From NCBI GenBank assembly GCA_024280015.1, contig JAJRQY010000004.1, forward strand, positions 1 through 41,648: a stretch of 41,648 nt of DNA, in the 5' to 3' direction. Below are positions 8,908 to 37,177 of the stretch, piece after piece. Within the stretch, counting starts at the first letter, position 1, and every line of letters starts with the position of its first letter. This stretch comes from Actinomycetes bacterium (GTDB taxonomy: Bacteria > Actinomycetota > Acidimicrobiia > Acidimicrobiales > SZUA-35). The position numbers and the translations under genes are program-made. The notes below the pieces were generated by a model. That model saw only the letters and a list, made by a program, of their open reading frames with translations, was not told the DNA's origin and searched no databases.

Positions 8908-9672
8908 TCATCGAAACGAGACGAGGCCGCCGCCATCAAGAACCAGGTGCTGGCCGGTCATCCAAGAAGCTGAGTCTGACGCGAGATACAAGGCAGCGTG
9001 AGCGATGTCCTCTGTCTCTCCCAATCGCTTGAGTGGGTAGGAGTTAGCAATCTTCTCCCCGGCTTCGCCTTCCCAGAGGAAACGAGCGAAGTCGGTCTTG
9101 ATAAGCCCGGGGCAGATGGCGTTTACCCGGACCATTGGGCCAAGTTCGGCGCCGAGTTGTTCGGTCATCTTCAGCAATGCGGCCTTGGTGAGGTCATACA
9201 CCCCGATCGACTCGCTTGTCATCTTGGCTCCGACGGAGGAGATGTTGATGATCACTCCACCATGCTCCTTCATTGAGGCTTGCCACGCAGCCTGGCTCCA
9301 CATGAGTGGTGCGGTGAGATTGACTTGGATGGTCTTGTCCCAGCGGCCGAGGTCAACATTGATCATTGGCCCGGCGTAGGGGTTGGTGGCCGCATTGTTG
9401 ACCAGGATGTCCAATCCGCCAAGTCGATCGAGGGTGGCCTGCGTGGCGTCGGCCGCAGCATCGCTTGACCCAGTATTGGCAACAAACCAGTTGCACCCCG
9501 TTGTCCCAGATGCCGCATCGATATCGGCCGCAGCTGCCTCAAGCGGTTCCGCCTTGCGCGAGACGATCATGACCCGAGCTCCTGCCTTCGCAAAGGCGGT
9601 AGCGATGGCCTTCCCGATCCCACGTGAGCCCCCAGTGATGAGCGCCACCTTGCCATCCAGTCGAAGTTCCAT
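8908..9672 (-). CDS. Short-chain dehydrogenase/reductase (FabG-like SDR)
   Basis: An NAD(P)-dependent oxidoreductase of classical SDR size (254 aa). Seen are the cofactor motif TGGSRGIG (residues 13-20), the NNAA motif near residue 92, and the catalytic Ser146, Tyr159 and Lys163 in the correct spacing. The C-terminal MTGQHLVLDGG is typical of the FabG-like branch. The substrate cannot be told from sequence. I chose the ATG at 9672 over a GTG two codons earlier because TAGATT lies exactly 6 nt upstream, fitting a leaderless transcript. It is followed after 62 bp by the site-2 protease gene on the same strand. Confidence 0.92.
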   Translation of the reverse strand: MELRLDGKVALITGGSRGIGKAIATAFAKAGARVMIVSRKAEPLEAAAADIDAASGTTGCNWFVANTGSSDAAADATQATLDRLGGLDILVNNAATNPYAGPMINVDLGRWDKTIQVNLTAPLMWSQAAWQASMKEHGGVIINISSVGAKMTSESIGVYDLTKAALLKMTEQLGAELGPMVRVNAICPGLIKTDFARFLWEGEAGEKIANSYPLKRLGETEDIAHAALYLASDSASWMTGQHLVLDGGGLVSFR

Positions 9673-32079: not shown

Positions 32080-33228
32080 TCAACGAGTTGGTGGTACGCC
32101 GACGTAGCGAGCGCTGGGTCGGATGATCTTGTTGTCGGCTGCTTGTTCCAGAATGTGGGCGCCCCATCCGATGACACGCGAGATCATGAAGGTCGGCGTG
32201 AACATTGAGCTTGGTAGACCAACCAGATGGAGGACAATTCCGGCGTAGAACTCGACGTTGGTAACGATGACGGCCTCGGGTTTCCATTGCCGCATGACCG
32301 ACAGAATTCGTTTCTCGATCTCGACTGCTCGTTCGACCAACTCCGAGTCATAGCCGAGTGCGACCTCTCGGAGTAGGAGTGAGCGTGGGTCTTCTGCCCG
32401 GTAGACGGCGTGGCCAAATCCCATAATTCGTTCGCCCCGATCCAGCTTGGCCCGCACCCAGGTTTCGGTACTGCTTGGGTCACCAATCTCTTCGATCATG
32501 GCCAAGGCACGGCTTGGTGCTCCTCCGTGGAGCGGTCCGCTCAATGCCCCGAGTCCGGCCGAGAGGGCAGAGACGGCGTCAGCGCCGGTGCTGGTGACGA
32601 CCCGAGCGGCAAAGGTTGAGGCGTTGAAGCCATGGTCGATTGTTGAACTCAGGTAAGTCTCAACGGCGCGAATGTCCTGCGCCGATGGTGCCGTGAGTGG
32701 TCTATCCCTCGGTGGATTGCGAGCCATGTACAGCCAGTCTTCGGCGTGGCCACGCGTCGGGTCGGGAGCAACCGGTTGACGCCCCGTTTGGAGGGAGGCC
32801 AGCGATGCGAGGACCGTTGGCAGGGCAGCTCCGAGGCGAAGGACATTGTCTCGGCGTTCAGCGTGGTCACAATCGAGGCTCGGTTTGGCGTCGGGCAGGA
32901 GTAGCGGCAAGGCGGCGAGTGCCCCCAGATGGGGCCTCTGAGTTAGCGCCCCTATCATTTCCAGTTGTGACATGACTTCTTCGGGCAAGACGCGCTGCAG
33001 GCCGATCTGGTGACGGAACGAGGCCTGGTTGTCGCCATCGGCCTTGGGTAGCTCGCCGTCAACGAGAAGCTGCCAAATTGCTTCAAGGGGACTGGATCGA
33101 GCGAGGCCGGTGGCTTCGTATTGCCGGTAATGGTAGAAGCCTTCGTCGCCGCGGACCTGGCCGATTGTTGTCTCCGCTACCTGGACTCCTTTGAGTCCAG
33201 GTGGGGCAAGAATGAGTGGAGTAGTCAT
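32080..33228 (-). CDS. Citrate synthase (citrate/2-methylcitrate synthase family)
   Basis: A 382-aa enzyme condensing an acyl-CoA with oxaloacetate. Conserved residues are His199 (DHGFNASTF), His234 (GPLHGGA) and His273 (GFGHAVYR). At the position of the catalytic Asp it has Glu326 in NVEFYAG, a replacement I recall from some actinobacterial citrate synthase paralogs. The C-terminal FTPTFMISRVIGWGAHILEQ is typical. The ATG at 33228 is chosen; an in-frame extension upstream runs through the operators and the divergent gene start. The gene is divergent from the HTH-citrate synthase gene, across 88 bp. Confidence 0.9.
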   Translation of the reverse strand: MTTPLILAPPGLKGVQVAETTIGQVRGDEGFYHYRQYEATGLARSSPLEAIWQLLVDGELPKADGDNQASFRHQIGLQRVLPEEVMSQLEMIGALTQRPHLGALAALPLLLPDAKPSLDCDHAERRDNVLRLGAALPTVLASLASLQTGRQPVAPDPTRGHAEDWLYMARNPPRDRPLTAPSAQDIRAVETYLSSTIDHGFNASTFAARVVTSTGADAVSALSAGLGALSGPLHGGAPSRALAMIEEIGDPSSTETWVRAKLDRGERIMGFGHAVYRAEDPRSLLLREVALGYDSELVERAVEIEKRILSVMRQWKPEAVIVTNVEFYAGIVLHLVGLPSSMFTPTFMISRVIGWGAHILEQAADNKIIRPSARYVGVPPTR

Positions 33229-33249
33229 GCCTAGATCATGCACATTTCT

Positions 33250-33309
33250 TCTATATTGATCAACGTTGATTGAATCAATGTTGACGCATTCAATCTGACC
33301 AAGCAAAGT
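33250..33309. promoter_or_regulatory. Divergent promoters with paired palindromic operators
   Basis: For citrate synthase (minus): TTGATT (33278-33273), 17 bp, TATAGA (33255-33250). The perfect palindrome ATCAACGTTGAT (33259-33270) sits inside this spacer. For the HTH-citrate synthase gene (plus): TTGACG (33281-33286), 17 bp, CAAAGT (33304-33309), then 7 nt to the ATG. A related site, ATCAATGTTGAC (33274-33285), overlaps its -35. The two operator copies are 15 bp apart, and TTGATTGAATCAA (33266-33278) is a further palindrome across the junction. Confidence 0.7.
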
Positions 33310-33316
33310 ATCAGTC

Positions 33317-34594
33317 ATGGCGAACTCGCGACAGGAGCACAACCAACGCGCTGAATCTCGGAGTCAACGCCTCACTGCAAGCGAGGCCGCGGCTCGGCTC
33401 GGCGTCAAGAGGTCGACCCTGTACTCCTATGTAAGCCGCGGTTTGCTTGATCGATCGGTCGCGCTTGATGGCAGGACGAGTCTCTTTGACCCAGCACAGA
33501 TTGATGGGCTAAGAACCAACCATCGGCGAACGGCACGCGGTGAGCTTTCGACCGTGATCAGTTCCTCAATCACCAAGCTCGACGAGGAAGGGCACCGTTA
33601 TCGAGAGCACCCGGTGGCCGAGTTGATTGGCAACGGCTTGAGCATCGAGGCCGTTGCGGACTTGCTTTGGCAGCACCATCACGACCGGTCGAACTGGGTG
33701 CTAGAGGCGGGCTTGAGAAGTGATCTCCGACGAACCCAGCTATCACTTGCTCCCGCGATTGGAGCACTGGACCGACTACGGGTGAGTGTCTCGGTGGCAT
33801 CGGCCGATGACGTACTGCGCAATGCTCACTCAGAAGGAGCCTTTGTCGAAGCGGGCCGCATCATCATCATGTCCATGGTGCACGGTCTAGGAGTATCAGC
33901 GAAGGCCACCCGAGATGAGCACGGTGTGGCTCGAGCCCTGTGGCCAGGTCTCACGAAATCATCGCGAAAGAGAGGGGCTAGGCCGAACGAATCGAGCGTA
34001 CGTGCATTGGAGGTGGCCATGATCTTGCTAGCTGACCATGGATTGGCGACCTCGACCTTTGGCGTGAGGTTGGCTGCGTCGGTGAGGGCCGATCCCTACT
34101 CTGTGGTTTCGACTGGCTTGGGTTCGATCGGAGGGGTCTTGCATGGATCGGCGGCTGATTCGGTGGTTCGCCTCCTGGCTCGGGCGGATGAGATTGGTGC
34201 CGAGTTGGCCATTGGAGAACGATTCGCCTCTGGTGAACGAATTCCGGGCGTTGGCCACAAGGTCTACCGAACGGTGGATCCGCGGGAGGCATTGCTGTTT
34301 TCGGCTCTGGAGAGGGGATGGCAGTCTGACCCGCGCTTGGACACGGTTAAGCAGATTCGCCATCTAGTGACCGATCGAATTGAGCGGCCAGCCAATGTCG
34401 ACCTAGCCCTTGGTGCCCTGGCTTGGCTGGGACACTTTGAGAGTGGTCCAACCGCTGTCTTTGCTATCGCCAGGACCATCGGCTGGGTCGCCCACGCCGT
34501 TGAAGAGATGGGGGAGATCCCGGTCCGGTTCCGCCCGGTTGCACGCTATGTGCCGAATCATCCTGATCCAGATCGGCCGGACCAGGATCCGTAA
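33317..34594 (+). CDS. Helix-turn-helix/citrate synthase fusion protein (candidate metabolite-sensing regulator)
   Basis: A 425-aa fusion. Residues ~18-65 form a MerR/excisionase-like DNA-binding domain (LTASEAAARLGVKRSTLYSY, then VSRGLLDRS). Residues ~95-415 are a citrate synthase fold. The active-site residues survive: His276 (VLHGSA), His314 (GVGHKVYR) and Asp362 (NVDLAL), and the C-terminus IARTIGWVAHAVEEMGE is family-typical. The protein may thus bind oxaloacetate, citrate or CoA and report it to DNA. The divergent gene is a stand-alone citrate synthase with palindromes on both promoters, which suggests direct control plus autoregulation (inference). Enzymatic activity may or may not persist. 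It converges on the TetR gene. Confidence 0.88.
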   Translation: MANSRQEHNQRAESRSQRLTASEAAARLGVKRSTLYSYVSRGLLDRSVALDGRTSLFDPAQIDGLRTNHRRTARGELSTVISSSITKLDEEGHRYREHPVAELIGNGLSIEAVADLLWQHHHDRSNWVLEAGLRSDLRRTQLSLAPAIGALDRLRVSVSVASADDVLRNAHSEGAFVEAGRIIIMSMVHGLGVSAKATRDEHGVARALWPGLTKSSRKRGARPNESSVRALEVAMILLADHGLATSTFGVRLAASVRADPYSVVSTGLGSIGGVLHGSAADSVVRLLARADEIGAELAIGERFASGERIPGVGHKVYRTVDPREALLFSALERGWQSDPRLDTVKQIRHLVTDRIERPANVDLALGALAWLGHFESGPTAVFAIARTIGWVAHAVEEMGEIPVRFRPVARYVPNHPDPDRPDQDP

Positions 34595-34600
34595 CCTTAG

Positions 34601-35377
34601 CTAGCTATCGGAAGCTGGATCAGCAGATCTGTCGTCCTCAATGAACTCTCGAGCGATAGCTACCATGCCGGTGCCGAGTAGATTCCAGCTTCCGACGTGA
34701 GGGCTTGGAGCGCTGGCGACTTCTTCGGGAATGATCTCAGAACGCAAGACTATCCCATCGGACATTGAAGCAATAATGGTGACGAACTGGGTCATGGTAT
34801 AGGGCGGCTTGAGCCGAAAACCTAGCCGGTCCAGCATGATCTGGTAGAGCTGGGCGAATGACTCGGTCGACTGTTTCTCGCCCGACCGAAGCTCAGGAAG
34901 GAGGAGTTCTCCGACGTCGGGATCGTTCATGGCTGTTGCCCAGATTGCTACCCACATCAACCAGTTTCGTCCCTGGCCCGGATCGAGTAGCAGGCCATTC
35001 ATCTGGCCAGCCGCGCGAGTGAGGTCAATCAGCATGGCATGACGCGCTTCTAGGGTGTGGTGGCGGACATCCGGAATGAACTCGGCGAGGCCGATCGTCT
35101 TCTCAGTGGGCCCCTCGCCGGACCGATCGCTCAAGGCGGCAAGGAGCAGGTCAAGCTGGAACTCCTTCATCGAGGGCCAAAGCCTGCTCGGTCCGAAGAT
35201 CGATCCCATACCGACCTTGATGTCTCGGCTCCGCTCGAGCTCACCCAAAGCTTCAGTCATCTGAACATGGCTGGCCGTTGCCCGAAGCCCACGCCGATAC
35301 AGCACGACTAGCCCGGCCGAGAGAATCAATTCGCGGAGCTCGGCCGAGGATCGACGAGGTCGTGGTGTCTCGGCCAT
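34601..35377 (-). CDS. TetR-like transcriptional regulator
   Basis: A 258-aa regulator. The N-terminal LRELILSAGLVVLYRRGL is the first helix of a TetR domain, and the segment to KVGMGSIFGPSRLWPSMKEF reads as an unusual, extended recognition region. The rest is a helical ligand-binding part with no recognisable ligand motif. The ATG at 35377 has TACACT 7 nt upstream (leaderless). The gene is divergent from the uORF/acyl-CoA ligase, so control of that ligase is likely but unproven. A dyad at 35431-35447 is a candidate operator. Confidence 0.8.
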   Translation of the reverse strand: MAETPRPRRSSAELRELILSAGLVVLYRRGLRATASHVQMTEALGELERSRDIKVGMGSIFGPSRLWPSMKEFQLDLLLAALSDRSGEGPTEKTIGLAEFIPDVRHHTLEARHAMLIDLTRAAGQMNGLLLDPGQGRNWLMWVAIWATAMNDPDVGELLLPELRSGEKQSTESFAQLYQIMLDRLGFRLKPPYTMTQFVTIIASMSDGIVLRSEIIPEEVASAPSPHVGSWNLLGTGMVAIAREFIEDDRSADPASDS

Positions 35378-35576: not shown

Positions 35577-35618
35577 ATGCTTCTTAATTGGCGCTGCAGC
35601 TGCCCAAGGCAATGGTGA
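35577..35618 (+). CDS. Short leaderless upstream ORF (MLLNWRCSCPRQW) overlapping the ligase start
   Basis: An ATG at 35577 opens a 13-codon frame that ends in a TGA overlapping the ligase ATG (35612) by 7 bp. TAGGGT lies 7 nt before its ATG, placing it at the very 5' end of a leaderless mRNA. The peptide contains two Cys and two Trp codons near its end. Such short leader ORFs can couple or attenuate translation of the next gene. It is visible as an arrangement; its translation is inferred. Confidence 0.4.
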   Translation: MLLNWRCSCPRQW

Positions 35619-37177
35619 GTGATCTTCGCTCGGGCGATAGCACCTCACCCTCCCCGGTTGTTGACCTTTTCCGATCCTCGGACTCGACCCTGGTCCTGGA
35701 TCGGGGGTATTCCTTAACCGCACCTGAGGCGGCTGATGCTGGCGAGCAGTCTGGTCGATGGCTCTTGGAGCAAGGTTTGGTTCGAGGCGATCGGGTCGCA
35801 CTCTGGATGCGGAGTGGTCAGGGGTACATCCAATCCTTTCTGGCCTGTGCAGCAATTGGAGTCGTGGTGGTCTCGGTCAATATTCGCTACAGCACCGCTG
35901 AGGTAGAGCGACTCCTGAAACGAGCTGGGGCGAAGTTCGTGATCACCGATCAGTCCGCAGAGACGCTGGTTTCAACGATTGAGACAATTCGAGTTGAGGA
36001 TCTACTGGACGGGATTGGCGGGTCCAAGCCATCCGGCAATCCGTTATCACCCGACTCGTCATCACCGGGCTCGATGCACCGCGGCGGATCGGGCGAAGAC
36101 CGTTGCATCATCTTCACCACATCAGGCTCGACCGGTGAACCAAAGATGGTGGTCCACCGGCAAGCCTCCATCGCCAGCCACTCCCTGGACATCGCTGGAC
36201 ATTGTGGTTTCAGATCCGAGGACATTGCCTTAGTCGCCATGCCTTTGTGCGGAACGTTCGGGCTAAGCAGCCTGCTTGGAGCGGTCGCGGCTGGATGCAG
36301 CAAGATCATTGTTGTCGACCGATTCGAGGCCAGCAACACAGCATCGCTGATTGTTGAACACCAGGTAAGGCTCATCAATGGCAGCGACGATCTGTTCCAT
36401 CGGTTGCTGAGGACAGACGCCGACTTATCATCGGTCCGAATCGGTGGCTACGCCCGATTCAATACCAGTCTTGACGGGATCGTGGAACGAGCAGCCGAAC
36501 GCGGTATGCACCTCACCGGTCTGTATGGGATGAGTGAGGTCCAGGCTCTATTCACGATGCGAGACATCGAGGCAGGCCCTGCGGTCAGGTCTCAGGCTGG
36601 CGGAACGCTGACATCTCCTTTGGCTGACTATCGAATTGTCGATGGAGAACTGCAGCTCAAAGGACCAAGCCTTTTTGATGGGTATCTGGCTGAAGGCGGA
36701 GCGGCGATCGATGAGGTTCTGACCGAGGCAGCCATGGACGGACCGTGGTTCAAGACCGGTGACTCCGCCGAGCGATCCGATGCAGGTGACGAACGCTCTT
36801 TCACCTTCGTTTCTCGTCTAGGCGATGTGCTCCGAATCGGTGGATTCTTGGTTGCTCCCTCCGAGATCGAACAAGTCCTCGTTGTGGGTAGCAGCGCTAC
36901 AAAAGCCAGACCCTCCAAGGCCAGAATTGTTGGCGCCCAGGTCGTGGCGGTTGATCGACCGAGCGGCGCACGGCCGATGGCTTTTGTCCTGGTGGAGCCG
37001 GGATCAGGCGTATTGGACGAGGAAGAAGTCAAGAGGCATTGTGCAAAACGGCTGGCTCGATTCAAGGTGCCGATTCGGATCATTGCGGTTACTGAGTTCC
37101 CGTTGGTTGATGGCCCCAATGGGCCCAAGGTTGATCGACGGCAGTTGCGAAGGATGGCCGCCACACTTCTTGACTAG
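35612..37177 (+). CDS. AMP-dependent acyl-CoA synthetase/ligase
   Basis: An adenylate-forming enzyme of 521 aa that activates a carboxylic acid to acyl-AMP and then acyl-CoA. Core motifs in order are TTSGSTGEPKMVVHRQ (A3), LYGMSEVQ (A5), FKTGDSAE (A7), RLGDVLRIGGFLVAPSEIE (A8) and the catalytic Lys in GPNGPKVDRRQLR (A10). The A5 motif MSE and the compact size fit the fatty/aromatic acid CoA ligases. The substrate is unknown. I favour the ATG at 35612 over a TTG at 35588: it has AAGG just upstream and is overlapped by the short leader ORF. The gene is divergent from the TetR regulator. Confidence 0.87.
   Translation: MVSDLRSGDSTSPSPVVDLFRSSDSTLVLDRGYSLTAPEAADAGEQSGRWLLEQGLVRGDRVALWMRSGQGYIQSFLACAAIGVVVVSVNIRYSTAEVERLLKRAGAKFVITDQSAETLVSTIETIRVEDLLDGIGGSKPSGNPLSPDSSSPGSMHRGGSGEDRCIIFTTSGSTGEPKMVVHRQASIASHSLDIAGHCGFRSEDIALVAMPLCGTFGLSSLLGAVAAGCSKIIVVDRFEASNTASLIVEHQVRLINGSDDLFHRLLRTDADLSSVRIGGYARFNTSLDGIVERAAERGMHLTGLYGMSEVQALFTMRDIEAGPAVRSQAGGTLTSPLADYRIVDGELQLKGPSLFDGYLAEGGAAIDEVLTEAAMDGPWFKTGDSAERSDAGDERSFTFVSRLGDVLRIGGFLVAPSEIEQVLVVGSSATKARPSKARIVGAQVVAVDRPSGARPMAFVLVEPGSGVLDEEEVKRHCAKRLARFKVPIRIIAVTEFPLVDGPNGPKVDRRQLRRMAATLLD

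Follow-up and report, generated by a model that had tools for sequence, protein, structure and literature searches.

We analysed a window of 41,648 nucleotides (contig JAJRQY010000004.1, positions 1 to 41,648) from a 4.8 Mb genome of the Acidimicrobiales. In this window, a gene that encodes a helix-turn-helix (HTH) domain joined to a citrate synthase (CS) domain stands back to back with a second CS gene, and the short gap between them holds two palindromes. The features of the locus are as follows.

33317-34594, plus strand: HTH-CS fusion gene P0001, 425 aa (open reading frame and Pfam; AlphaFold2 and Foldseek)
33371-33517, plus strand: MerR-type winged helix-turn-helix of P0001, aa 19-67 (Pfam MerR_1 and structural alignment)
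33554-34516, plus strand: CS domain of P0001, aa 80-400, with the active-site His/His/His/Asp and Arg retained (Pfam, alignment and Foldseek)
32080-33228, minus strand: CitA-type CS P0002, 382 aa, divergent to the fusion, catalytic Asp replaced by Glu (open reading frame, Pfam and alignment)
33229-33316: gap between the fusion and the divergent CS, 88 bp
33260-33269: putative operator palindrome 1, TCAACGTTGA (extended form ATCAACGTTGAT, 33259-33270)
33275-33284: putative operator palindrome 2, TCAATGTTGA, starting 15 bp downstream of the start of palindrome 1
33256-33285: putative composite operator, TTGATCAACGTTGATTGAATCAATGTTGAC
33250-33278, minus strand: candidate CS-gene promoter, placed by eye, with -35 TTGATT, a 17-bp spacer around palindrome 1 and -10 TATAGA
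33281-33309, plus strand: candidate fusion-gene promoter, placed by eye and weak, with -35 TTGACG (33281-33286) overlapping palindrome 2, a 17-bp spacer and CAAAGT

Beyond the fusion, the next gene, at 34604-35377 on the minus strand, looks TetR-type by eye, although Pfam gives it no match at E 0.001. Facing it is an AMP-binding (acyl-CoA ligase) gene, at 35588-37174.

The initial annotation had described P0001 as a DNA-binding domain fused to a CS fold that keeps His, His and Asp of the active site, and this description held. Pfam places Citrate_synt (PF00285) at aa 80-400 (E 2.7e-50, 171.9 bits against a cut-off of 27) and MerR_1 at aa 20-67 (24.2 bits against 21.6), with HTH_17 slightly under its cut-off. 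Among the NCBIfam CS equivalog families, P0001 reaches no curated cut-off, its best score being 117 bits against the 421 required by TIGR01800. An AlphaFold2 model built from an alignment of 39 fusions has a mean pLDDT of 89.9, and the best Foldseek matches of its body are citrate and 2-methylcitrate synthases, with TM-scores by target mostly at 0.70-0.77. Modelled alone, the HTH (pLDDT 86) aligns with the SoxR-DNA structure at Z 8.5 and 1.6 A over 58 residues, and its further matches (excisionases, BldC, BmrR and other MerR members) come almost purely from the MerR superfamily; these Z values are moderate by the standard of small domains, and the Pfam MerR_1 match is concordant. The fusion has the winged HTH fold and signature of SoxR, BmrR, BldC and the excisionases, but it lacks a C-terminal dimerising coiled coil at the place usual for MerR proteins and carries the CS domain instead. 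Across the fusions, conservation is highest in the HTH, which has an invariant core of TxYxYVSRG and a mean identity of 68% in its helices vs. 48% in the CS domain.

The CS domain itself is conserved selectively. P0001 has H276, H314 and D362 at the active site and keeps all three substrate arginines (R323, R386 and R406). In pig CS numbering, assigned from alignments, His238 is present in 126/126 fusions, His274 and His320 in 125/126 each, and Asp375, Arg329, Arg401 and Arg421 in 126/126. By contrast, the position of Asn242, after the first His, is Ala in 113 fusions, Pro in 7, Ser in 2 and Asn in only 4, whereas it is Asn in 101/101 partner CSs. The basic residue after GHxxY (Arg324), a CoA contact, is R or K in 44/126 fusions vs. 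99/101 partners, and the Tyr following the catalytic Asp is usually Ala. So the carboxylate pocket for oxaloacetate or citrate is retained in the fusions, while some residues useful for catalysis and CoA binding are relaxed. Because most members are without the Asn and the basic residue, the domain resembles a sensor more than it does a good enzyme, which argues for formation of citrate or methylcitrate being weak or absent in most members. Still, enzyme activity could persist in some, since a subset that includes P0001 (R318) retains every catalytic residue, the basic one among them.

The divergent gene is another CS, as had been proposed (E 1e-97), and among solved structures B. subtilis citrate synthase 1 (2c6x) is the closest to it. 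A feature absent from the earlier description is that its catalytic Asp is a Glu (NVEFYAG). The same Glu (NVE) occurs in 101/101 partner CSs, as it does in B. subtilis CitA (2c6x). Fusion and divergent CS co-evolve, their distances being correlated at 0.91 over 99 loci. In fusion-less Acidimicrobiales (L143-L153), the CitA-type CS apparently has an N-terminal CBS-like extension, like VVENGALVGIVSMRDLM, in frames of 486-1005 aa, and the extension apparently also occurs in some fusion-bearing genomes (L032, L067 and L103), in both cases by eye. The same CitA-type CS may be regulated in alternative ways, by CBS sensing or by HTH-CS control.

The initial annotation had also placed one palindrome inside the spacer of one promoter and a related site on the -35 of the other. 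The palindromes themselves are clearly there: under a first-order Markov model of the gap, the probability of one or more such sites is 0.004 and that of two is about 1e-5. The positions relative to the promoters fit by eye (in plus-strand letters, the CS-gene -10 is TCTATA at 33250-33255 and its -35 is AATCAA at 33273-33278), but the hexamers are weak and a strict sigma-70 scan found no promoter in the gap, so this part of the description is tentative. The perfect double site TTGATCAACGTTGATTGAATCAATGTTGAC has a single copy in the 4.8 Mb genome, the next best match having 2 mismatches. A third TCAAYRTTGA lies in the window at 9353-9362, far from the gene pair; it is a single site and probably a chance or unrelated occurrence.

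Conservation of these sites in relatives that share the gene pair had been set beforehand as an observation whose absence would refute the regulatory proposal, and it proved to be strong. We gathered fusion loci from relatives, from named genomes (Acidimicrobiales, Streptomyces, Kitasatospora, Actinoplanes, Rhodococcus, Gordonia, Actinomycetospora and others) and from a phylum sample, all within the Actinomycetota. An exact TCAAYRTTGA occurs within 300 bp upstream of the HTH in 107 of 126 distinct fusion loci, including 34/44 in Acidimicrobiales, 3/4 in Actinoplanes, 2/2 in Rhodococcus/Gordonia, 11/12 in a distant family and 47/48 in Streptomycetaceae, where many of the Streptomyces loci are closely related rather than independent. 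These upstream regions hold 124 sites in 37.75 kb, compared to 8 sites in the remaining 705.6 kb of the same loci. In 200 Markov shuffles, a mean of 0.115 loci (maximum 2) had a palindrome, which rules out chance as the source of the 107 observed. Of the 19 fusions that lack an exact palindrome, most of those with a divergent CS show a site with 1 mismatch.

The arrangement of the sites is conserved as well. Two palindromes are present in 15/44 Acidimicrobiales loci, and most other loci have one palindrome and, at the same 15-bp register, a TCAAY half-site. The spacing of this extra half-site is fixed, being 15 bp in 75 sites and 18 bp in 11. Fusion loci from Embleya and Nonomuraea, found independently in a plasmid collection, both have a palindrome with a half-site at 15 bp. 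At two plasmid fusion matches that we inspected, the plasmid records held no annotated genes.

An operator in a divergent gap could have been inherited with either gene. The palindrome is kept upstream of 12 of the 17 fusions that have no divergent CS in their locus (a few of the 17 being contig-end cases), and it is found nowhere in 14 CS loci of fusion-less genomes (11 strong CitA orthologs and 3 weaker ones). It therefore tracks the fusion and not the CS, and inheritance with the CS gene is ruled out, as CitA orthologs without a fusion have none. Across ten whole genomes, no composite site with 0-1 mismatches lies away from the fusion locus. In eight of them, every such site sits at that locus, and in the remaining two (G083 and G251) the composite operator is absent and the fusions have neither an operator nor a divergent CS. 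These results, together with the 2 mismatches of the next best site in the genome of the window, rule out a broad regulon. Because the operator is confined to the locus in eight genomes and lost with the CS partner in the other two, the arrangement looks like a dedicated local unit of regulator and target. A conserved operator that lies between fusion and target and tracks the fusion, as found here, is one of the features of a one-component autoregulator with a divergent target.

The pair also occurs in Streptomyces coelicolor. In the Streptomyces locus L106:4327-7234, the fusion is followed by a Suc_Fer-like (sucrase/ferredoxin-like) gene and then by a sensor kinase that carries sCache_3_2 and SpoOB-type domains. 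This order equals the SCO5831-SCO5830-SCO5829 order reported for S. coelicolor (PMC9739823), so SCO5831 (citA3) and SCO5832 (citA4) are the orthologous pair of fusion and divergent CS. They match L106 in their divergent order and in the downstream Suc_Fer-like gene and sensor kinase, but the papers that we found treat both as enzymes, under the name of citrate synthase or citrate synthase-like (PMC7324645, PMC8981147, PMC9739823, PMC12323332). The kinase is reminiscent of the CitA/DcuS sensors of citrate and C4-dicarboxylates, which suggests a locus devoted to TCA acids. MtrA binds TTGACTTAACTGTCCA in the SCO5831-SCO5832 intergenic region, and an mtrA mutant shows increased expression of both genes (PMC12323332). 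This joint derepression fits joint control of the pair, and the binding indicates that other regulators act on the Streptomyces intergenic region. Between the palindrome and the CS start in Streptomyces (L106, L098, L100 and others), we also observed a conserved element, TTGATTnGACTGTCCATGCTTGACT; it resembles the MtrA site of SCO5831/SCO5832 and may overlap the CS -10.

Taken together, we favor the explanation that the fusion is an autoregulating one-component regulator that senses oxaloacetate or citrate and controls both genes, probably as a repressor, to which we give a probability of roughly 0.78. That the fusion regulates both genes, as the initial annotation suggested, is well supported by comparative genomics, given an operator that is conserved and tracks the fusion. 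We infer that the N-terminal MerR-type winged HTH binds the intergenic operators based on TCAAYRTTGA. The CS fold, normally a homodimer, would serve as both the dimerisation and the ligand-sensing domain. A dimer of this type could present two HTHs to a dyad operator, and the tandem sites would fit two dimers. The ligand is most likely oxaloacetate and/or citrate, which we infer because the substrate-binding residues are retained. Repression is favored since the core promoter regions of the fusion's own gene and of the CitA-type CS gene, as placed by eye, are both covered by the operators. Ligand binding would alter affinity for DNA, so that production of the side CS would be limited to a particular state of the TCA cycle.

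The fusion could instead be a trigger enzyme, i.e., an active citrate or methylcitrate synthase that doubles as a DNA-binding repressor of its own locus in the absence of substrate, like PutA. The nearly complete retention of the catalytic His (125-126/126), of the Asp and of the three Arg (both 126/126), with R318 in P0001 besides, is what such an enzyme would show. However, the Asn that is invariant in all 101 partner CSs is Ala, Pro or Ser in 122/126 fusions, the basic residue is gone in about two thirds, the residue that follows the catalytic Asp is usually Ala instead of Tyr, and the genome has a third, canonical CS gene at another place. We therefore consider a trigger enzyme possible but rather doubtful. 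An activator of the MerR kind, which would switch on one promoter or both through distortion of an over-long, operator-containing spacer, seems less probable again and is, in our estimation, unlikely. The HTH is structurally MerR-type, and in a few relatives (L008, L009 and L033) a TTGAT(T/C) and a hexamer like TATGCT, TAGGCT or TATCAT can be seen by eye ~20 bp apart around the palindrome. Yet the nominal distance from operator to fusion-gene start varies widely (mostly 9-136 bp), and the Streptomyces operator lies at differing distances from the apparent -10, unlike the fixed geometry of MerR promoters, whose operator sits in a spacer of 19-20 bp separating -35 and -10.

Two further readings would take the regulatory role away from the fusion altogether. 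The palindromes might be sites of another regulator, such as MtrA or GlnR, in which case the fusion would be only an enzyme whose HTH is vestigial. The MtrA binding and the mutant response at SCO5831/SCO5832 (PMC12323332) point in that direction, but that MtrA site, TTGACTTAACTGTCCA, lies beside the palindrome and differs from it. Moreover, the palindrome is unique to the locus in most genomes and follows the fusion rather than the CS, and the HTH is the best-conserved part of its protein, which makes this reading highly improbable. Least credible is that the two genes are an ordinary pair of CS isoenzymes in which the N-terminal HTH is a chance similarity, as would accord with the published annotation of SCO5831 and SCO5832 as putative citrate synthases. 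A winged HTH conserved over the fusion loci, its structural match to SoxR, BldC and BmrR, and a conserved operator already contradict it.

An autoregulating fusion of this kind would have recognizable counterparts. In B. subtilis, citR-citA joins a minor CitA-type CS to a divergently transcribed regulator gene, CitR being LysR-type. The locus described here likewise combines a CitA-type CS and a divergent regulator, but the regulator is itself built on a CS. In the MocR/PdxR/GabR regulators and the ROK repressors, an HTH is fused to a whole enzyme fold that acts as the ligand sensor, often divergent from the target. Those proteins use aminotransferase or sugar-kinase folds, whereas the fusion uses a CS fold. 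Regulators that combine an HTH with an enzyme fold are thus already known, but a CS-fold member with a conserved operator appears to be undescribed in the open literature that we searched. In that open-access literature, we found no description of an HTH-CS or CS-fold regulator, and none of an HTH, palindrome or regulatory role for SCO5831, which does not prove that such descriptions are absent.

On balance, we lean towards a broader view in which the fusions form a widespread, undescribed family of actinobacterial regulators with an intact CS fold that directly senses oxaloacetate or citrate (or acyl-CoA), so that a single protein reads the TCA cycle branch point, and switches a Glu-type side CS, SCO5831 and its orthologs being misannotated as enzymes. 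If this is true, an enzyme of central metabolism would join the small set of enzyme folds that have been turned into gene switches, and the fusion would be a candidate natural sensor of oxaloacetate or citrate. Proteins of the SCO5831 type would also move from ‘citrate synthase’ to regulator, which would affect how transcriptomic and proteomic data from antibiotic producers are read.
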